NCBI RefSeq assembly: GCF_000148645.1
Contig: NC_014541.1
Span: 2,565,139 to 2,629,138 of the forward strand
Source: Ferrimonas balearica DSM 9799
GTDB taxonomy: Bacteria > Pseudomonadota > Gammaproteobacteria > Enterobacterales > Shewanellaceae
Direction: 5' to 3'
Length of the DNA: 64,000 bases
In this document: positions 35,995-45,002 of the stretch, piece by piece
Numbering within the stretch: position 1 is the stretch's first letter
Layout: each line of letters begins with the position of its first letter
Notes under the pieces: model-generated
Told to the model about the DNA's origin: nothing
Database searches by the model: none
What the model saw: only the letters and a program-made list of their open reading frames with translations
Program-made: the position numbers and the translations under genes

Positions 35995-38082
35995 ATGATG
36001 AAGTTTGGCCTTCCGGCATCCCTTGGCATTAAACAGAGCTTTATCGGCATTCCGATACTGCTTCTGGCCGTTCTGGCGATGGTGATCCTGCCCCTGCCGC
36101 CCTGGCTGCTGGACATGCTGTTCACCTTTAATATCGTGCTGGCGATTCTGGTTCTGCTGGTGGCGGTGGCCGCCACCCGACCGCTGGATTTCTCGGTGTT
36201 CCCCACGGTGTTGCTGCTGGCGACCCTGATGCGTCTCACCCTGAACGTCGCCTCAACCCGGGTGGTGCTGATTGAGGGTCACCAGGGCGGCGATTCGGCC
36301 GGTAAGGTGATCCAGGCCTTCGGTGAGGTGGTGATCGGCGGGAACTATGTGGTCGGTATGGTGGTGTTCCTGATCCTGATGATCATCAACTTTGTGGTGA
36401 TCACCAAAGGGGGGGAACGTATCTCGGAGGTGAGTGCCCGCTTTACCCTGGACTCCCTGCCCGGTAAGCAGATGGCCATCGACGCCGACCTCAACGCCGG
36501 TGCCCTGTCCCAGGAGCAGGCCAAGGATCGTCGCGCCGAAGTGGCGCGGGAAGCCGACTTCTACGGCAGCATGGACGGTGCGTCCAAGTTTGTCCGTGGT
36601 GACGCCATCGCCGGTATCCTGATCCTGTTTATCAACATCATCGGTGGTGTCGCCATCGGTGTGTTCCAGCACGACATGAGTGCCGGTGACGCGTTCCGCA
36701 CCTTCGCCCTGCTGACCATTGGTGACGGTTTGGTGGCGCAGATCCCTTCGCTGCTGCTCGCCGTGGCCGCGGCCATCATCGTCACCCGGGTGTCCGATGC
36801 CGAGGAGATGCCGGAGCAGGTGTCGCGCCAGCTGCTGGCCAATCCCGCCGTACTGGGCACCACCGCCGGGGTGATGGCGATCATCGCTGTGGTACCGGGT
36901 ATGCCCACCATGGCGTTTGGCGCCTTTGCCCTGGTACTGGCCTTTGTGGCCTGGAAACAGCATCAGTTCACCCCACCGGCCCCACTGGAGCAGGTGGAGG
37001 AGAAGATTGAGGCCGCCCGGGCCGAAACCAAATCCCCCACCTGGGAGGCCCTGCCCTACACCGACACCTTTGAGGTGAGCCTGGGCTACCGTCTGGTGCA
37101 CCTGGTGGACAAGAACAAGGGCGCGGAGCTGCTGACCCGCCTGACCGGCATCCGCCGCACCCTGTCCGAGCAGGCCGGTTTCCTGCTGCCGGAGGTGCGG
37201 GTGCGCGACAACCTCTCGCTCGCGCCCACCAGCTACCAAATCGCTTTTATGGGGATCCCGGTGGCCTCCGGTGACCTGGAGCCGGAGCGCCTGCTGGCGA
37301 TCCAGTCCGGTCAGGTGTACGGCACCATCGACGGCACCCTGACCAAAGACCCGGCCTACCAGATGGATGCCGTGTGGATTGACCCGGACAACAAAGCCAA
37401 GGCACTCAACCTGGCCTACTCCGTGGTGGACACCGCCACCATCATCGCCACCCACGTCAGCAAGCTGATGCGGGAACGACTGGCGGATCTGATCCAACAC
37501 GACGACATCACCGCGCTGACCGACCGGCTGACCGCCCAGGCACCGCGTCTGGCGGAGTCCCTCAACAGCGCGCTGACCCCCATCCAGCAATTGAAGGTGT
37601 ACCGTGCGCTATTGCGTGAGCAGGTGTCGCTCAAGGACATCCGCACCATCGCCACCACCCTGCTGGAGTGTTCCGAGAACACCAAGGACCCCATCCTGCT
37701 GGCCGCCGACGTGCGCTGTGCCCTGAAGGAGACCATCCTGCACCAGATTGCCGGCAGCCGCGGCAAGCTGGAGGTGGCCACTCTGGCGCCGGAGCTGGAA
37801 CAGACCCTGATGAACGCGCTGGCTCAGGCCCAGAAAGGCGGCCAGGTGCCACTCGACAGCTTCGCCATCGAACCGGCGCTGCTGGCCCAGCTGCAAAGCA
37901 AAATGCCCGCCCTGACCGGCATGATGCAGGAGCAGGGTCACCCCGCCATCTTGCTGGTGCCACCGCAACTGCGCCCGGTGCTGGCGCGCTACGCCCGGGC
38001 CTTTGCCCGTGGTCTCAATGTGCTCTCTTACAACGAGATGCCCGAAGACCGCGAACTGGCGATTGGCGCCACCCTGGGATAA
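35995..38082 (+). CDS. flhA: Export gate protein FlhA
   Basis: 695 residues. The membrane half contains the FHIPEP-family signature (PTVLLLATLMRLTLNVASTR) and the ion-linked FHIPEP loop (FTLDSLPGKQMAIDADLNAG). The soluble half (about 355-690) docks chaperone-substrate complexes. It is the last gene of the fliMNPQR-flhBA operon. There is no flhF or flhG behind it, as in lateral and unlike polar systems. Confidence 0.96.
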   Translation: MMKFGLPASLGIKQSFIGIPILLLAVLAMVILPLPPWLLDMLFTFNIVLAILVLLVAVAATRPLDFSVFPTVLLLATLMRLTLNVASTRVVLIEGHQGGDSAGKVIQAFGEVVIGGNYVVGMVVFLILMIINFVVITKGGERISEVSARFTLDSLPGKQMAIDADLNAGALSQEQAKDRRAEVAREADFYGSMDGASKFVRGDAIAGILILFINIIGGVAIGVFQHDMSAGDAFRTFALLTIGDGLVAQIPSLLLAVAAAIIVTRVSDAEEMPEQVSRQLLANPAVLGTTAGVMAIIAVVPGMPTMAFGAFALVLAFVAWKQHQFTPPAPLEQVEEKIEAARAETKSPTWEALPYTDTFEVSLGYRLVHLVDKNKGAELLTRLTGIRRTLSEQAGFLLPEVRVRDNLSLAPTSYQIAFMGIPVASGDLEPERLLAIQSGQVYGTIDGTLTKDPAYQMDAVWIDPDNKAKALNLAYSVVDTATIIATHVSKLMRERLADLIQHDDITALTDRLTAQAPRLAESLNSALTPIQQLKVYRALLREQVSLKDIRTIATTLLECSENTKDPILLAADVRCALKETILHQIAGSRGKLEVATLAPELEQTLMNALAQAQKGGQVPLDSFAIEPALLAQLQSKMPALTGMMQEQGHPAILLVPPQLRPVLARYARAFARGLNVLSYNEMPEDRELAIGATLG

Positions 38083-38099
38083 TGCTTTCCTGGCATGTT

Positions 38100-38125
38100 G
38101 GCGGCCTCCGGGCCGCCTTTTTTTT
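38100..38125 (+). terminator. Terminator of fliM-flhA operon
   Basis: GGCGGCC / GGCCGCC stem, TCC-type loop and eight to nine T, 18 bases past the flhA stop. Confidence 0.92.
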
Positions 38126-38149
38126 GGTTTATCGCATATTTTCGTGGGA

Positions 38150-38460
38150 ACCTTGGCTCCGAGCCCGTTACGACCTACCCAGCCATTGCCGGGATGCCCC
38201 GGCGGGCACCAGAAGGGCGTTGCCCCTCTGGACTCCCCTATGCCTCCGACGCGGCGAAAGCCCCTCGCTCCCACTCCTTCCCATTCAGCACTGGCCAGAC
38301 TCGCATCCCTGCTCGGCTGGCACTCGGGCCATCCCTGGCCCTCGGCTTCACTCCCAGTCGCTCCCGCTCGGCGCCGCGAGTCGGCCTCTGGTGGACGGCT
38401 ACGCCGTGATAGTCGGGTGCTTCCTCCGATTCAGAGGAAACACCAGCTCTTCGAGACAAG
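38150..38460. repeat. GC-rich structured non-coding segment, candidate dispersed repeat
   Basis: The 490-base gap between flhA and the peptidase holds no credible gene. It has several foldbacks: CCAGA-AGGGC-gtt-GCCCC-TCTGG near 38210-38232, CCGGGATGCCCCGG near 38192, and TTCCTC...GAGGAA near 38424-38441. Composition is GC-rich, with many short reading frames in all phases. This kind of segment is often found as a multicopy intergenic element, but copy number cannot be judged from one window. Confidence 0.35.
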
Positions 38461-38616
38461 TAGAGGTCATCGGGATTTTATCGCTTGGTGATATCGCTTT
38501 TGTTTTATTTCCCCGCTAATCCGCGACGAACCTTTTCTTTGCCCTCGTGACGCGTGGGCTGTTCACTGGGGGATTTTTGTATACAATCTTCAAAAACCGA
38601 ACAGCAAGGAACCCCA

Positions 38617-39837
38617 ATGACTCTGCCAATCGGCGTCGGTGGCGCCACCATGGAGGACGAGCTGGCTCGTCTGCGAGCCCTCAGCTTCCCCCACTCCCCC
38701 ATCAGCAGCGAAGAGTACCAGGCCCGCCGCGAGCGCCTGATCACGCAGATGCAGGCCCATAACGTGGGCGCGGTGTACCTCAATGCCGGCACCAACCTGT
38801 ACTACTTTACCGGCCTGAAATGGTACGCCAGCGAGCGCCTGGTGGGTGCCCTGCTGACCGTCAGCGGCGAGCTGATCTACCTGGCTCCCCACTTCGAAGC
38901 CGGCTCCATCGCTGACTTCTGGCTGGAGCCCGGCCCGCTGGCGCTGTGGCATGAGCATGAGAGCCCCTACGCCCTGGTGGGCGCGGAACTGGCCCGGCTG
39001 GGTCTGGCCGAGACCACCCTGGCGGTGGACGGCAGCGCCGCGTTCTTCCTGGCGGATGGCCTGCGTCAGGCCAACCCGAATCTGTCGCTGATCAACGCCG
39101 ACCCGCTGCTGACCGCCTGCCGCGCCTGCAAATCGCCGGCTGAGATCGCCCTGATGCAGACCGCCAAGGCGAAGACCCTTGAGGTGCACAAATCCGCGGC
39201 CCGGATCCTGCGTGAAGGGATCAGCACCAGCGAAGTGACCGCCTTTATCAATGAAGCCCACAAAGCGGTTGGTGCAGCGGGTTCCAGCTTCTGTATCGTT
39301 CTGTTTGGTGTGGCCACCAGCTTCCCTCACGGCGTCAAAGAAGCGCAGATCCTGAAACCCAATGACTGGGTGCTGATCGACACCGGCTGTCTGCTGGAGG
39401 GCTACAACTCCGACATCACCCGCAGCTACTGCTTCGGTGAAGCCAGTGACGCCCAGCGTCATGCCTGGCAGGCGGAGAAAGCCGCCCAGATCGCCGCCTT
39501 TGAGGCCGCGCAGCTGGGACAGCCCTGTGAGGCGCCCGATTACGCCGCCCGCGCGGAGCTGGCGCGTTTTGGCTTTGGTCCCGACTACCAGTTACCGGGC
39601 TTACCCCACCGCACCGGCCACGGTTGTGGCCTGGATATCCATGAAGGCCCCTACCTGGTGCGCGGCGACGAAACCCCGCTGGCCACCGGCATGGTGTTCT
39701 CCAACGAGCCGATGCTGGTGGTGCCAGACCAGTTTGGTGTGCGCCTCGAAGACCACTTCTATATGGGCGACACCGGCCCGGTCTGGTTTACCCAGCCCAG
39801 CCACAGCCTGGATGACCCCTTCGGGCTGCAAGCCTGA
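38617..39837 (+). CDS. M24 family Xaa-Pro peptidase
   Basis: 406 residues from the ATG at 38617 (AAGGA upstream). The N-terminal creatinase-type domain (about 30-160) precedes a pita-bread metallopeptidase domain. Expected metal ligands are visible: two Asp in VLIDTG and NSDITRSY, His in HRTGHGCGLDIHEG, and Glu in FSNEPM and VRLEDHF. It removes an N-terminal residue before proline; aminopeptidase P-like or prolidase-like substrate size cannot be told apart from sequence alone. It is monocistronic, with its own terminator. Confidence 0.9.
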   Translation: MTLPIGVGGATMEDELARLRALSFPHSPISSEEYQARRERLITQMQAHNVGAVYLNAGTNLYYFTGLKWYASERLVGALLTVSGELIYLAPHFEAGSIADFWLEPGPLALWHEHESPYALVGAELARLGLAETTLAVDGSAAFFLADGLRQANPNLSLINADPLLTACRACKSPAEIALMQTAKAKTLEVHKSAARILREGISTSEVTAFINEAHKAVGAAGSSFCIVLFGVATSFPHGVKEAQILKPNDWVLIDTGCLLEGYNSDITRSYCFGEASDAQRHAWQAEKAAQIAAFEAAQLGQPCEAPDYAARAELARFGFGPDYQLPGLPHRTGHGCGLDIHEGPYLVRGDETPLATGMVFSNEPMLVVPDQFGVRLEDHFYMGDTGPVWFTQPSHSLDDPFGLQA

Positions 39838-39841
39838 GCCA

Positions 39842-39871
39842 TAAAAAAAGCCCACTCCTGTGGGCTTTTTT
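39842..39871 (+). terminator. Terminator of the Xaa-Pro peptidase gene
   Basis: AAAAAAGCCCAC / GTGGGCTTTTTT with a TCCT loop, directly after the stop codon. Confidence 0.92.
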
Positions 39872-39950
39872 GTTGGTGCCGGGTTTTCGTCATGTGGGCT
39901 TATCACCAACGGCAACACGCTGACTCGGCCAGCCACCCTATTCCGGTTGT

Positions 39951-40050
39951 GCTCCGTGGGCCACAGGCCCACGCTACGGCTGCCTGCGCTCTAAAACGAC
40001 AAAACCCGCAACACTGTGCGGGTTTTGCTGAAGATGGCGGTCAGGGAGAG
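39951..40050. repeat. 100-bp direct repeat, left copy (palindrome, terminator, tRNA 3' end)
   Basis: Nearly identical to 41671-41770. It starts with a strong palindrome GTGGGCCacAGGCCCAC, then carries the CCCGCA hairpin terminator and the last 16 bases of tRNA-Ser. The right copy continues into a full tRNA-Ser; this copy instead continues into the tandem array. Confidence 0.8.
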
Positions 40051-40506
40051 AGGAGCTTCACCCCTTCGGGGCCGCCGCAAGCGGCGTCACTTCGGCGTAA
40101 GCGCCCATCTCTTATAAAGAGCGCGAACTCTGCCGAGCCTTCTCATTCTCCCTGACATCGTGCCTACGCTCTAAAACGACAAAACCCGCAACACTGTGCG
40201 GGTTTTGTTGAAGATGGCGGTCAGGGAGAGAGGAGTTTCACCCCTTTGGGGCCGCCGCAAGCGGCGTCACTTCGGCGTAAGCGCCCATCTCTTATAAAGA
40301 GCGCGAACTCTGCCGAGCCTTCTCATTCTCCCTGACATCGTGCCTGCGTTCTAAAACGACAAAACCCGCAACATTGTGCGGGTTTTGTTGAAGATGGCGG
40401 TCAGGGAGAGAGGAGTTTCACCCCTTCGGGGCCGCCGCAAGCGGCGTCACTTCGGCGCTGCGCGCCTACGTTGCGAACTCTGCCGAGCCTTCTCATTCTC
40501 CCTGAC
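40035..40506 (-). ncRNA. Three candidate structured RNA elements with tRNA-Ser-like 3' end
   Basis: Elements at 40035-40156, 40215-40336 and 40395-40506, read on the minus strand. Each is closed by the perfect ten-base stem GTCAGGGAGA / TCTCCCTGAC and ends in GACCGCCA, the tRNA-Ser acceptor end with CCA. Inside are hairpins CTCTT-tat-AAGAG, GGCG-ctta-CGCC, CGCCGC-tt-GCGGCG and CCCC-gaa-GGGG. In the third element the first is lost and the second changes to GGCGC-gca-GCGCC, keeping its pairing. Each is followed by the tRNA terminator. No known RNA family is recognised; REP-like DNA hairpins are the alternative. Confidence 0.35.
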
Positions 40507-40530
40507 ATCGTGCCTGCGTTCTAAAACGAC

Positions 40531-40556
40531 AAAACCCGCAACATTGTGCGGGTTTT
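40531..40556 (-). terminator. Terminator of first tRNA-Ser
   Basis: AAAACCCGCA / TGCGGGTTTT hairpin nine bases after the tRNA 3' end. The same hairpin recurs at 40001-40026, 40181-40206 and 40361-40386. Confidence 0.85.
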
Positions 40557-40564
40557 GTTGAAGA

Positions 40565-40652
40565 TGGCGGTCAGGGAGAGATTCGAACTCTCGATACGTT
40601 GCCGTATACACACTTTCCAGGCGTGCTCCTTCAGCCACTCGGACACCTGACC
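40565..40652 (-). tRNA. tRNA-Ser(GGA), first copy
   Basis: 88 nucleotides with encoded CCA. The acceptor stem GGTCAGG / CCTGACC is perfect, the anticodon loop CTGGAAA gives anticodon GGA, and the long serine-type variable arm (TGTATACGGCAACGTATCG) and T-loop TTCGAAT are present. The sequence is identical to the copy at 41755-41842. Confidence 0.97.
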
Positions 40653-40758
40653 TTTAAATTGTTTGCTTTGACGAGTTTTCCTCTCGACCACATTCTCTTA
40701 CGAGGTGTGGCTGAATCGCACGGCTGAGCGTGGCGATTTTGTCGGCCCTGCCTCCGAG

Positions 40759-40779
40759 CAGCCACTCGGACACCTGACC
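40759..40779 (-). pseudogene. 5' fragment of tRNA-Ser
   Basis: 21 bases identical to the tRNA-Ser 5' end (GGTCAGGTGTCCGAGTGGCTG), between the promoter and the intact gene. What follows is not tRNA, but a CAGCCAC stretch downstream can pair with GTGGCTG. It is a leftover of a duplicated or interrupted tRNA gene. The rest of 40653-40925 has no other feature apart from the promoter. Confidence 0.75.
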
Positions 40780-40821
40780 TTGTTTTGTTGTCTTGGGGGC
40801 TCTCCCCTCTCGACGAGGCGT

Positions 40822-40850
40822 ACTTTACGGATCCCCCCCGCTACCGTCAA
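40822..40850 (-). promoter_or_regulatory. Promoter of first tRNA-Ser
   Basis: The minus strand has TTGACG, 17 bases, TAAAGT, followed by a GC-rich discriminator (ACGCCTCG) as in stable RNA promoters. The leader then includes the 5' tRNA fragment before the intact gene. Confidence 0.6.
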
Positions 40851-40925
40851 GGGTCGTTTTTGGCAAAATGATTCGTTTGCGCAGTTCTGCGCCACAATGA
40901 ACAGGATTACAACGCTTTGCGGTCA

Positions 40926-41434
40926 CTATTGCCCCGCCCGACGGCCATCGGCCAGACGGGCGCGGTAGTGCGAAAGATCCGACTCGCGAAAGCAGCAGAC
41001 AGTCAGCTGCATCCGAGCCGTCCACGCCTGCATCACATCCAGTGCTATCCGGGCAGCGCGGTCCGCCGGGTAACCGTAGATGCCCGTGCTGATGCAGGGG
41101 AAGGCGATGCTGTTGGCCCCAATCTCCTCGGCCAACACCAGACTGTTTTGGTAGCAGTGGGCCAGCTGGCGGGCCTCATTTTGGTCGCCCCCTGCCAGAT
41201 GGGCCCCACCGTATGGATCACCCAACGGGCGGGTAAGGCAAATCCCGGGCTGTGTTTGGCCTGACCGGTGGCGCAGCCCCCCAAAGTACGGCAAAACGCT
41301 TTCAGCTCCGGTCCGGCGGCGCGATGAATGGCGCCATCCACACCACCACCGCCCAGCAACGTTGGGTTGGCGGCATTGACGATGGCATCGACATTCAGCT
41401 CGGTAATATCGCCCAGATGCAGTTGTATGGTCAT
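40926..41434 (-). pseudogene. Macro-domain protein (YmdB-like), frameshifted
   Basis: The ATG at 41434, with AAGGAG, opens a macro domain: [20 protein letters not shown], then [14 protein letters not shown], which binds ADP-ribose and its O-acetylated forms. At the G run 41188-41192 (minus strand CAGGGGGCGACC) the frame breaks; adding one G restores [20 protein letters not shown] and the rest of the domain ([20 protein letters not shown]), ending at 40926. The joined protein would be about 169 residues, the usual size. The break is either a true inactivating deletion, a sequencing error in a homopolymer, or a slippage site. The upstream gap 41435-41670 shows nothing. Confidence 0.88.
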
Positions 41435-41670
41435 GATTCGCTCCTTATCAGCAAGGATAGCGTCAGCAGGACTCAGGAGCACAGAGGCCGTTTCCGGGGG
41501 GGAATTGAGGGCGATTAGTTCACCCGACGGCGCTGTGGCATTGTCGTCGTGGCGTGGCCATAGTGCCCACGGCATTCGGCAGTGAGGGTCATACCGCTGG
41601 ACGTTGCCAGGCTTAGGTAATAAAGGCGCCGGATAGTGGCAGGGCGAGACAGGTGCACCGATTTGGCGTC

Positions 41671-41770
41671 GCTCCGTGGGCCACAGGCCCACGCTACGGC
41701 TGCCTGCGTTCTAAAACGACAAAACCCGCAACACTGTGCGGGTTTTGTTGAAGATGGCGGTCAGGGAGAG
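41671..41770. repeat. 100-bp direct repeat, right copy
   Basis: Partner of 39951-40050. It holds the GTGGGCC palindrome, the terminator hairpin and the tRNA-Ser 3' end. Together with the tRNA it forms the longer repeat 41711-41853, which matches 40521-40663 at all but one of 143 bases. Confidence 0.85.
41721..41746 (-). terminator. Terminator of second tRNA-Ser
   Basis: The same AAAACCCGCA / TGCGGGTTTT hairpin, nine bases after the tRNA 3' end. Confidence 0.85.
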
Positions 41771-41842
41771 ATTCGAACTCTCGATACGTTGCCGTATACA
41801 CACTTTCCAGGCGTGCTCCTTCAGCCACTCGGACACCTGACC
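41755..41842 (-). tRNA. tRNA-Ser(GGA), second copy
   Basis: Identical in all 88 bases to the copy at 40565-40652, with anticodon GGA and encoded CCA. It has its own promoter upstream (41896-41924), so both copies can be expressed separately. Confidence 0.97.
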
Positions 41843-41895
41843 TTTAAATTGTTGCAGCGGAATCGCTTGACGCTGTGCCCCGCTACGGGTTGCGC

Positions 41896-41924
41896 ATATT
41901 AGGGAAGTGGCCCCGATACGTCAA
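41896..41924 (-). promoter_or_regulatory. Promoter of second tRNA-Ser
   Basis: The minus strand has TTGACG, a 17-base spacer and TAATAT, followed by GCGC as discriminator. The tRNA 5' end lies about 45 bases further on. The boxes sit just behind the CHAD gene stop at 41933. Confidence 0.75.
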
Positions 41925-41932
41925 CGGCTTTT

Positions 41933-42727
41933 TTATCGAATCGGCGCGTCTGCGCTATTTTTCATCAAAAGATGTTGTATCCAGTCATCCAGCGCGTTTT
42001 TTTGGGTCATTTGAGCCGCTTTTAACTCTGCCCGGTACTGGCGAGCCTGGCGGGCGGCTTTGCCCTTCCCCGCCTGCAAGGGCTTCAGCAGGATTCGCTG
42101 ACTGCACAGGTCGTTGAAATCCCCCAGCAAAGTCTGCCCCTCTTTTAACAACGCCAGCTGGCTGGGCTCACCGCACAAGGTCTCCAGATAGCGCCAACGC
42201 TTAATCAGGATGCGCAGACGATGCCACTGTGGCGTACTGGAGCGATTAAGCAAGCGCTGGCACTGGTGTTCAATTCGGCTCTTGAGGTGTTGGCGCACCC
42301 GCTCGGTTTCGGGGGCCAATACCCGGCCATCGCAGGGCCAGCTCAGTTTCAGTAACCACAGGGCGAGCTCTCGGTCCCGCTGCTGTTGCTCAGCCTCCGC
42401 GTGAAAAATCCGATAGGTGCGCTGACGCAAACGCCCGACCTCATCCTTGAGCGCCCCCGGATCCAGACTGGGCCAAAAGACATCGAGATCCCGGGCCAGG
42501 TTGGCGGCGCGGGCCTGCTCCCCCAGCAGTTGCGCCAACAGTGCCGCCGGTGTGTCTGCCAGCGCGTCCCGGTACAGGGTTAACAGGCTGCGCGCCTTGC
42601 GCAGGTGCACCCGGTACTGATGCAGGGCTTCAGGACTGCCATCCACATCCACACCCGTCAGATGCTGCAACGCGGTATCGTATTGAGTTGCTGCCCTTTC
42701 CCGTATCCCTGTCGCCACCGTTTCCAT
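41933..42727 (-). CDS. CHAD domain protein
   Basis: 264 residues from the ATG at 42727 (GAGG upstream); an earlier TTG lies inside the nadA terminator and is rejected. The helical CHAD domain covers nearly the whole protein, with the conserved His and Arg pairs (LHQYRVHLRKARSLLTLY near 35-52; WHRLRILIKRWRYLETLCGE near 165-185). These basic helices bind polyphosphate in studied relatives. There is no CYTH domain in front. Its function in this context is not evident. Confidence 0.88.
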   Translation of the reverse strand: METVATGIRERAATQYDTALQHLTGVDVDGSPEALHQYRVHLRKARSLLTLYRDALADTPAALLAQLLGEQARAANLARDLDVFWPSLDPGALKDEVGRLRQRTYRIFHAEAEQQQRDRELALWLLKLSWPCDGRVLAPETERVRQHLKSRIEHQCQRLLNRSSTPQWHRLRILIKRWRYLETLCGEPSQLALLKEGQTLLGDFNDLCSQRILLKPLQAGKGKAARQARQYRAELKAAQMTQKNALDDWIQHLLMKNSADAPIR

Positions 42728-42740
42728 TGCCACCTCATAC

Positions 42741-42768
42741 AAAAAAACGCCGAGCAAGTCGGCGTTTT
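42741..42768 (-). terminator. Terminator of nadA
   Basis: AACGCCGA / TCGGCGTT stem with a CTTGC-type loop and seven T on the minus strand. It lies between the nadA stop and the CHAD gene start. Confidence 0.88.
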
Positions 42769-42785
42769 CAGTATAGAGGTCGGGG

Positions 42786-43850
42786 TTAGGCGTTGCCTTT
42801 GACCTTCAGTCGCAGTTCGGCAGCGAAGTCGAGCATCCGGTTCAGCGGAATCATCGCTTTCTCCGCCAGTGCCGGGTCCACAAACACTTCGTGTTCGGTC
42901 TTGTCCTCGGCGGTCAGCGCACGCTCAATGGCGTCCAGGCCGTTCATCGCCATCCACGGACAGTGGGCACAGCTGCGGCAGGTGGCGCCGTTGCCGCCGG
43001 TGGGCGCTTCAATGAAGGTTTTCTCCGGTGACAGCTGCTGCATCTTGTAAAAGATGCCTTTGTCGGTAGCGACGATAAAGGTGTCGTTGGGCAGCTCCTG
43101 GCTCGCCTTAATCAGCTGCGAGGTGGAGCCCACAGCATCGGCGATCTCCACCACCGACTGCGGTGACTCAGGGTGCACCAGTACGGCGGCGTTGGGGTTC
43201 TGACGCTTGAGGTCAAACAGGGCGTTGGCCTTAAACTCGTCATGCACCACGCAGGCGCCCTGCCACATCAGCATTTCGGCACCGGTTTGCTTGGCGATAT
43301 AGCTGCCCAGGTGGCGGTCAGGACCCCACAGGATCTTGTGCCCTTCGCTGTCGAGGTGCTCAACAATCTCCAATGCGATGCTGGAGGTAACCACCCAGTC
43401 AGCCCGGGCTTTCACCGCCGCAGAGGTGTTGGCGTACACCACCACGGTGTGGTCCGGGTGGGCATCACAGAAGGCGGTAAATTCGTCGGCCGGGCAGCCG
43501 AGGTCGAGGGAGCAGGTGGCCGCCAGCGTCGGCATCAGTACGCGCTTGTTGGGGGTCAGGGTTTTGGCGGTTTCGCCCATAAAGCGCACGCCCGCCACCA
43601 CCAGGGTAGAGGCCGGGTGCTCCGCCCCGAACCGGGCCATCTCCAGAGAATCCGCCACACAGCCACCGGTCTCCTCGGCCAGGGCCTGGATCTCGGGATC
43701 GGTGTAGTAGTGGGCCACCAGGACCGCATCCTTCTCTTTCAACAGGCGCTTGATGCGCTCTCGGTATGCCTGCTTGGCTTCATCGCTCAGCGGGGTCGGC
43801 TTGGGCGGGAACGGGTAGTGCAGGTCATCGACAACAGGGGCTTCAATCAT
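42786..43850 (-). CDS. nadA: Quinolinate synthase A
   Basis: 354 residues. It condenses iminoaspartate with dihydroxyacetone phosphate to quinolinate in NAD synthesis. The three cysteines that hold the [4Fe-4S] cluster fit TCSLDLGC (about 115-120), GACVV (about 200) and [13 protein letters not shown] (about 290-297). It starts [20 protein letters not shown] at residue 44, as in the family. It is monocistronic with its own promoter and terminator. Confidence 0.96.
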
Positions 43851-43885
43851 TCCGGTTCTTTGGCTTCAACAACGTTGGTCCGGCC

Positions 43886-43914
43886 ATTATACGAAAACGG
43901 CCGGCCAAGGTTAA
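43886..43914 (-). promoter_or_regulatory. Sigma70 promoter of nadA
   Basis: The minus strand has TTAACC, a 17-base spacer and a perfect TATAAT, about 35 bases before the nadA ATG. Confidence 0.7.
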
Positions 43915-43955
43915 CCGCAGAGTGACGGCGCTCAAGGGCGCCGTTCAGAATGGGA

Positions 43956-45002
43956 TCAATGTCCGACCAGCGAATGGGACTGTGAGAAGCCACCGGATTG
44001 AAAACGGGCCTTAATCACCGCTTCCCGCACCGCATCACTGTCCGCCACCCGGGTTCGAAGCTGCAGTTGCTGTACCGCACGCAGGTTGTCCTGGGCGGTG
44101 GCAAAGTAGATGGGTGACGCATCAATGGCCTTGATAAACAGGCGCTCCGCTTCCTTCAGTTGCCCCTCGAGCATGACGAAATAACCGATGTCGTTGTAGG
44201 CATCGGCTTCCGGCATCACCCGGCGGAACGCCTGAAAAGCCCGCTCGCTCTGCCCCTGGCGGACATAGACCAGCCCCAGGTTGGTCCAGGCCCGGAGAAA
44301 CTCCGGTTGCCGCTGTGTCGCCCGGCGCAGATAGGTTTCCGCCCGAATCAGGTCACCCGCCAGGTAGTAGGAGTAGCCAAGGTTATTCAGGGCTTTGGCG
44401 TTGCTGGGCTGCAGCGTCAGCACCAGTCGATAGAGGGCCTGGGCGCCATCGAAGTCGGCATCCAGGTCGCGCAGAATGCCGAGCGCCTGGTAAGCCTTGA
44501 GCGGCGAACGCTCATCAAGGGCATGCCAGGGTTGGGTACCGGACTCGCCCAGCTGCACCTGAATGCTGGTGTCTTCGGCATACAAGCGCTTCTGGTCCAG
44601 CCGAATCGCTTTGTCGAGGTAGGTACGGGCCTGGCCGTTATCACCACGGGCCATATGCAGAAGCGCCAGAGAGGTCATGGCAGGCAGGTGGTCAGGCTGA
44701 ACCTTGAGGACATCCTGAAAAGCGGTGATGGCGTGGTCATTTTTCCCCAGTTGCGCCTGAATCTGACCAATCTGATAGAGGTACTCGAGGTTATCGGGCT
44801 GCGCGTCCAGCAGCTCCAGATAGGCTTTCAGTGCGGTGTTGTACTGCCCCATCCGTTGGGCGCTGACGGCCTGCTTTTGCAGCTGTTCGACGTTGGGGCC
44901 AGTGGCCACCGGAGGGGCCGACTGGCAGCCCGCCAGCGCCAGTACCAACACGGCACCGCTCAGCCAGCGTCCGGTGGTGGCATTTACTAATCGGTTTTTC
45001 AT
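43956..45002 (-). CDS. tadD: Tad pilus TPR lipoprotein TadD
   Basis: 348 residues. The lipoprotein signal VLALAGC places the lipid on Cys26. The rest is a row of at least six tetratricopeptide repeats (AVSAQRMGQYNTALKAYLEL; GQIQAQLGKNDHAITAFQDV; ALNNLGYSYYLAGDLIRAET). It matches TadD, the pilotin-like partner for secretin assembly, by size and by position at the end of the tad operon. Confidence 0.88.
   Translation of the reverse strand: MKNRLVNATTGRWLSGAVLVLALAGCQSAPPVATGPNVEQLQKQAVSAQRMGQYNTALKAYLELLDAQPDNLEYLYQIGQIQAQLGKNDHAITAFQDVLKVQPDHLPAMTSLALLHMARGDNGQARTYLDKAIRLDQKRLYAEDTSIQVQLGESGTQPWHALDERSPLKAYQALGILRDLDADFDGAQALYRLVLTLQPSNAKALNNLGYSYYLAGDLIRAETYLRRATQRQPEFLRAWTNLGLVYVRQGQSERAFQAFRRVMPEADAYNDIGYFVMLEGQLKEAERLFIKAIDASPIYFATAQDNLRAVQQLQLRTRVADSDAVREAVIKARFQSGGFSQSHSLVGH

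Follow-up and report, generated by a model that had tools for sequence, protein, structure and literature searches.

tRNA-linked repeats (TLRs) are described as elements whose tail repeats, base for base, the 3' end of the preceding RNA gene, and Escherichia coli K-12 is credited with 22 of them at ten loci, one being the rtT RNA of the tyrT locus, RtT (PMC8144298). The same account places an rRNA-linked type in at least 31 species of Enterobacteriales, and states that RrA, RrB and RrF are transcribed and processed (PMC8144298). RrB lies between two terminators and is produced by read-through; one RrB form has its 3' end 3 nt beyond the tail repeat, a position explained in that study by RNase E recognition of the copied end (PMC8144298). 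An early claim for a role in starvation recovery is given as withdrawn (PMC8144298). RtT has also been reported in Pasteurellaceae, where RNAs of the family were detected by RT-PCR in Actinobacillus (PMC4986893).

We compared these systems with a tandem array behind a tRNA-Ser(GGA) gene of Ferrimonas balearica DSM 9799, within a window of 64,000 nucleotides (NC_014541.1, positions 2,565,139 to 2,629,138; Table 1). Our main reading, to which we assign a probability of roughly 0.78, is that the array consists of three TLRs of the rtT-RNA family, which would be transcribed by read-through from the tRNA gene and then excised by the enzymes that mature tRNA 3' ends.

Table 1. Features at and around the tRNA-Ser(GGA) array, in window coordinates.
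Feature	Position	Strand	Score or basis
tRNA-Ser(GGA), head of the array	40565..40652	(-)	ARAGORN; Rfam tRNA 52 bits
Terminator-like hairpin of tRNA-Ser(GGA)	40529..40558	(-)	inverted repeat
TLR copy 1, 112 nt, closest to the tRNA, middle hairpin divergent	40395..40506	(-)	R2 32.1 bits, E 2e-7, full length
TLR copy 2, 122 nt	40215..40336	(-)	R2 26.2 bits, E 7.1e-6, full length
TLR copy 3, 122 nt	40035..40156	(-)	R2 27.3 bits, E 3.7e-6, full length
Terminator-like hairpin copies, one after each TLR	~40359-40388, ~40179-40208, ~39999-40027	(-)	
5'-headed element: first 21 nt of tRNA-Ser(GGA) exact, insert, CAGCCAC	40705..40779	(-)	R1 73.6 bits
Sigma-70-like promoter TTGACG-17-TAAAGT	40822..40850	(-)	9/12 consensus match
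Second tRNA-Ser(GGA)	41755..41842	(-)	ARAGORN; promoter-like site 41924-41896

The first-pass annotation had described three elements of 112–122 bases in units of 170–180 bases, each closed by a ten-base stem, and this geometry stands. The first element starts 59 nt behind the tRNA gene, on the same strand, and successive tail ends, counted outward from the tRNA, are 170, 180 and 180 nt apart; Tandem Repeats Finder reports 3.4 copies of a 180-nt period at 39981-40581 (94% matches, score 1034). The two arms of the stem are GTCAGGGAGA, at the start of every element, and TCTCCCTGAC, which is followed by the CGCCA of the tRNA end. The tRNA-Ser ending noted earlier is borne out exactly for the last 17 nt in all three copies, with a difference at the eighteenth base back (17/18). 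The divergent copy had been taken to be the third, and is in fact the one adjoining the tRNA: copies 2 and 3 are 98% alike, whereas copies 1 and 3 share 72% ungapped identity. The tRNA terminator was also said to follow each element. A copy of its hairpin does, and three of these four hairpins form a perfect 12-bp inverted repeat. Their U-tract is interrupted, and a simple consensus scan calls none of them a terminator. Against dinucleotide shuffles the three elements fold with z of -2.51, -3.56 and -3.07 (equalled by 4, 1 and 0 of the 200 shuffles). The promoter-like site lies ahead of the 5'-headed element, the tRNA and the array. Across 2.2 kb it is one of two candidate sites, against 0.7 on average in shuffles. 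Beside the second tRNA-Ser(GGA) gene we found neither TLRs nor a 5'-headed element. Between the two tRNA genes (40926-41692, minus strand), a reading frame is apparently split over two frames; we take it to be macro-domain-like.

Judged from sequence, the three elements are TLRs, a divergent new member of the family that includes the E. coli rtT RNA. The grounds for this assignment are position, tail, homology and copy number; the elements miss the Rfam cut-off. The E. coli TLRs at tyrT-tyrV and tRNA-Ser likewise lie downstream of a tRNA, copy its 3' end, share a homologous core, occur in one to five copies per locus and have terminators between the copies. The TLR unit at E. coli tyrT is 178 bp, similar in length to the array unit. 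In the E. coli strain 13E0780, a tRNA-Ser 94% identical to that of the window is followed by a terminator and then by an annotated RtT sRNA. The array differs from the E. coli repeats in its genus, in a tail one base short of their 18–19 nt and in a core that scores under the Rfam cut-off. In a sensitive search, the RtT model RF00391 aligned over its full length with copy 1 (22.3 bits) and copy 3 (17.1 bits), and copy 2 had no match at E ≤ 10; the gathering cut-off is 45 bits, so the array is not filed as a curated RtT member. Two whole-genome searches with the same model (E ≤ 0.1 and E ≤ 0.001) returned no match in F. balearica. Among relatives, RF00391 matched 16 of 60 genomes at E ≤ 0.1, four above the cut-off, and, across the order at E ≤ 0.001, 61 of 295 genomes, with 42 above it. 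At curated cut-offs Rfam found nothing in the window, tRNAs included; the absence of the tRNAs, which clear their cut-off of 29 bits in the sensitive search, is attributed to fast filters. Matches in the window to the Leu, Thr and His leaders, a Tymovirus tRNA-like structure, STnc30 and mir-338 all fell below cut-off and were rejected.

Homology to other TLRs was carried by a model built from relatives, R2, which comprises 50 aligned TLRs (49 of 57 candidates from other genera and one from E. coli) and contains no Ferrimonas sequence. Since the automatic consensus (RNAalifold, unedited alignment) kept just three base pairs, R2 is close to a pure sequence profile. The three array elements rank first in the window, where the fourth match has an E-value of 0.036, and are also the top three in the whole 4.28-Mb genome (E 1.4e-5 to 4.7e-4; next 0.64). 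Within the genus, R2 matches 10 of 14 genomes at E ≤ 0.01. The earlier proposal of a family of tRNA-tailed small RNAs was thus right in kind and wrong as to novelty; the remark that no described counterpart was known is contradicted by R2 and by the E. coli RtT, and with it goes the claim of a new RNA class.

TLR-like elements extend well past the Enterobacteriales and Pasteurellaceae of the published accounts that we found. At E ≤ 1e-4, R2 has a match in 128 of the 369 genomes sampled in the class and in 35 of 200 genomes of the phylum; 21 of those 35 lie outside the class, in two families, 20 of them in one. A same-strand tRNA accompanies ten of the twelve class-level loci checked, with a tail identity of 17–18 of 18, and the other two have no tRNA in the stretch; the two out-of-class loci checked have tail identities of 18/18 and 17/18. 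The tRNA kinds whose ends are copied include Tyr, Lys, Pro, Ser, Arg, Glu, Val and Gln.

That the tail fits the local tRNA of so many kinds is also what a selfish element propagating through the tRNA end would produce, and a core resembling the TLR reverse complement, seen by eye inside tRNA-Phe-like copies, would suit such an element. Yet a genome-wide copy search, proposed in the first-pass annotation, recovered nothing from the own genome beyond the three copies themselves, a single 29-nt fragment and the flanks of two tRNAs, and by eye no mobility gene was seen among the reading frames of 36000-45000. We surveyed the tails of 131 TLR-like elements, 128 taken from the RF00391 matches listed and three from the window, with tandem neighbours thinned and others left out. 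An upstream tRNA on the same strand accompanies 122 of the 131, and in 94 the nearest upstream tRNA shares at least 16 of the 18 tail bases. As there is no other complete copy in the genome and 94 of 131 tails resemble the nearest upstream tRNA, selfish spread, one of the two earlier proposals, finds no support, and we consider it very unlikely. Least probable of all, to the point of being nearly negligible, is an ordinary dispersed REP-like repeat. REP-like hairpins do stand beside the array and, in the related genome G003, within it, and rtT-like sequences are reported inside a BIME cluster in Enterobacteria (PMC2965389). REP and BIME sequences have many dispersed genomic copies, but both the copy search and R2 found the array element not dispersed, and it is unlike the adjoining hairpin in sequence. 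That hairpin (gccgtagcgtgggcctgtggcccac, ~39951-39980) recurs as a cluster at 3974384-3975101 of the genome.

Copies of tRNA tails that are not tRNAs also occur elsewhere in the own genome, at Arg (2), Asp (2), Pro (6), Met (5) and Phe (2) genes; some look like degenerate tRNAs, and R2 matches none of them at E ≤ 0.01. The tRNA-Phe units, in the own genome and in G003 (C3:446393-447801, 173 nt), end in the tRNA-Phe tail, and their T-loop appears to harbour the TLR hairpin core in reverse complement. Behind tRNA-Ser(TGA) of the own genome (~2052300-2052900), units of 242 nt join a TLR-like 5' half to a REP-like hairpin and have drifted tails (R2 E 0.6-0.8).

We also compared the closing stems of the TLRs with their tails. 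For this stem test we retained 95 of the surveyed elements, having dropped 4 duplicates, 23 whose best tail match was below 16/18 and 9 whose stretch contains no tRNA; the elements are linked to tRNAs for Lys, Ser (four anticodons), Tyr, Pro, Arg, Glu and Val, and the best-matching tRNA lies downstream for 9 of the 95. With its own tail an element forms a closing stem of 8.2 bp on average, against 6.0 bp with the tails of other tRNAs, but the own tail beats every foreign tail in just 35 of 95 elements, and seven Arg-linked elements reach 5–6 bp only. Over the 50 aligned TLRs, a six-helix structure pairs 82.3% of cells and shows 193 both-side changes, where shuffles give 75.1 ± 9.6 (0 of 500 as high) and slid versions of the structure 47 to 77. 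Such changes fall at 21 pairs, a count reached by 10 of 500 shuffles, and in the closing helix at 8 of 9 pairs. The structure was named by hand because RNAalifold on the unedited alignment gave three pairs, so these counts are biased by being taken on the very 50 sequences from which it was named; neither they nor the swap-test values are independent, as many TLR sequences are related. The tRNA tail supplies the 3' strand of the closing helix, so the 5' arm tracks the local tRNA. The closing stem thus covaries with the local tail, a sequence pattern which hints that pairing with the tail may matter.

The same observations bear on whether the array is anything more than decaying tandem copies. 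Unequal recombination could duplicate the tRNA end together with its terminator, and gene conversion could keep the ends alike, leaving copies without function. The number of tails at the two tRNA-Ser(GGA) genes shifts as such decay would predict, from three and none here to two and three in G003, two and one in G004 and one and one in G007. Further, 17 of the 20 tail copies in the genome sit at other tRNA genes and resemble degenerate tRNAs or other inserts, and the halves behind tRNA-Ser(TGA) are broken by REP-like hairpins. In G003, REP-like hairpins replace the 5' part in three of five tail copies, which speaks against a strict need for the structure. The varying copy number among relatives and these replacements make a largely neutral array a serious rival, which we regard as possible though not likely, as covariation inside and at the base, with a core recognisable across the class, needs selection or a steady renewal of structure. 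Decay is also compatible with the main reading, in that TLR RNAs could be released and yet do nothing.

For the three TLRs as an RNA-producing unit, RrB offers a model, whose layout the array repeats three times. Like the array, RrA, RrB and RrF of the E. coli rRNA operons place a TLR between two terminators with a tail from the RNA upstream; unlike it, they carry a 5S rRNA tail and bind CsrA, whereas the array carries a tRNA tail. The RtT relatives Arrc20/21 of Actinobacillus pleuropneumoniae, whose transcripts were detected, also stand beside tRNA genes, but their published position is upstream of the tRNAs for Asn and Lys (PMC4986893). By analogy, transcription would begin ahead of tRNA-Ser and pass its terminator in part, giving precursors with one, two or three TLRs, fewer with each further terminator. 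The 5' arm of each TLR would pair with the copied tRNA 3' end and mimic the acceptor/T helix, so that the enzymes maturing tRNA 3' ends could cut the TLR as well, freeing compact RNAs of about 110–170 nt. Release by tRNA-processing enzymes is plausible, and RNAs of the array are most likely read-through products excised in this way. That such RNAs act as CsrA or Hfq sponges, as RrA, RrB and RrF of E. coli suggest and as the binding of both proteins by RrB would favour (PMC8144298), is improbable here. CsrA-binding TLRs have several GGA motifs in loops; each window TLR has one GGA, located in the closing stem, and 19 tRNA-linked TLRs of E. coli are reported to score below 0.01 for CsrA (PMC8144298). 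The lack of GGA motifs beyond one per element makes a CsrA sponge unlikely.

The same tRNA gene also has a copy of its beginning on the other side. An exact repeat of the 23 bases at its start, two leader bases and the first 21 of the tRNA, lies at 40781-40759, and the CAGCCAC after the insert of this 5'-headed element is complementary to the D-loop GTGGCTG of its head. The element has no Rfam match at E ≤ 10, and we found no description of such repeats in the titles and abstracts of open-licence literature. Its predicted fold does not contain the GTGGCTG/CAGCCAC stem and does not clearly surpass shuffles (z -1.65), 18 of 200 of which do equally well. We scanned 433 tRNA calls at 186 loci, overlaps counted twice, for the first 20 nt of the tRNA with at most two mismatches within 700 nt upstream. 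Thirty hits fell at tRNA-Ser(GGA), 19 of them distinct; four at other calls were judged spurious because their strand is opposite to that of the TLRs. With the downstream sequence left unconstrained, CAGCCA is present in 14 of the 19 distinct hits, against 3.8% in letter shuffles.

A pattern scan over 84,980 species, each represented by a single genome, yielded 35 matches in 24 stretches; it is no test of the closing stem, as the pattern demanded CAGCCA. Thirty matches have tRNA-Ser(GGA) downstream and a head identity of 19–21 of 21, and five have no downstream tRNA in the stretch, one of these being a chance-like match in a Thiobacillus MAG. Hosts include Ferrimonas, Aeromonas, Neiella and Thalassotalea, and the elements stand in one to three tandem copies. 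At one locus upstream of tRNA-Ser(GGA) (L188, 1-530), three 167-nt units combine a tRNA head with hairpins that resemble the TLR core by eye. Because a MAFFT alignment of all 35 elements misplaced hairpins, the model R1 was built from 18 of them; the window copy belongs to this training set, which bears on its score in Table 1. Within the order, R1 has matches in 25 of 394 genomes, in 7 of 114 genera and four families; among 369 genomes of the class it matches only the own genome. In 26 of 30 R1 loci checked a tRNA follows, every one Ser(GGA), and four have no tRNA in the stretch. In the one E. coli tRNA-Ser region tested, no head copy was found within 1.19 kb upstream.

In the R1 consensus, the D-loop sequence is modelled as pairing with the downstream CAGCCAC, and two further hairpins are predicted, the last of which is perhaps a shrunken anticodon arm. 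The closing helix cannot testify by covariation, as it hardly varies. The second helix has 12 both-side cells, where shuffles have 3.4 ± 1.4 (0 of 500 as high), and the model-fitted alignment gives 61 against 18.6; two of five measures are not above shuffles (both-side pairs, 67 of 500; further pair types, 475 of 500). In several genomes of one genus, perhaps Aeromonas, the head has drifted to 16–18 of 21 and the hairpins are retained. We lean towards the view that, across four or more of the order's families, tRNA-Ser(GGA) carries an undescribed structured leader RNA, a mirror image of the TLRs, which would be transcribed with the leader.

The breadth of TLR-like elements across many tRNA kinds provides a comparative basis for the question of what TLRs do. 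If the 5'-headed element is what it appears to be, a tRNA with TLRs behind it and such an element ahead of it would be framed by false 5' and 3' ends, and these false tRNA ends could serve as decoys or timers for processing enzymes. The 5'-headed elements offer a new and compact system in which to test tRNA processing.
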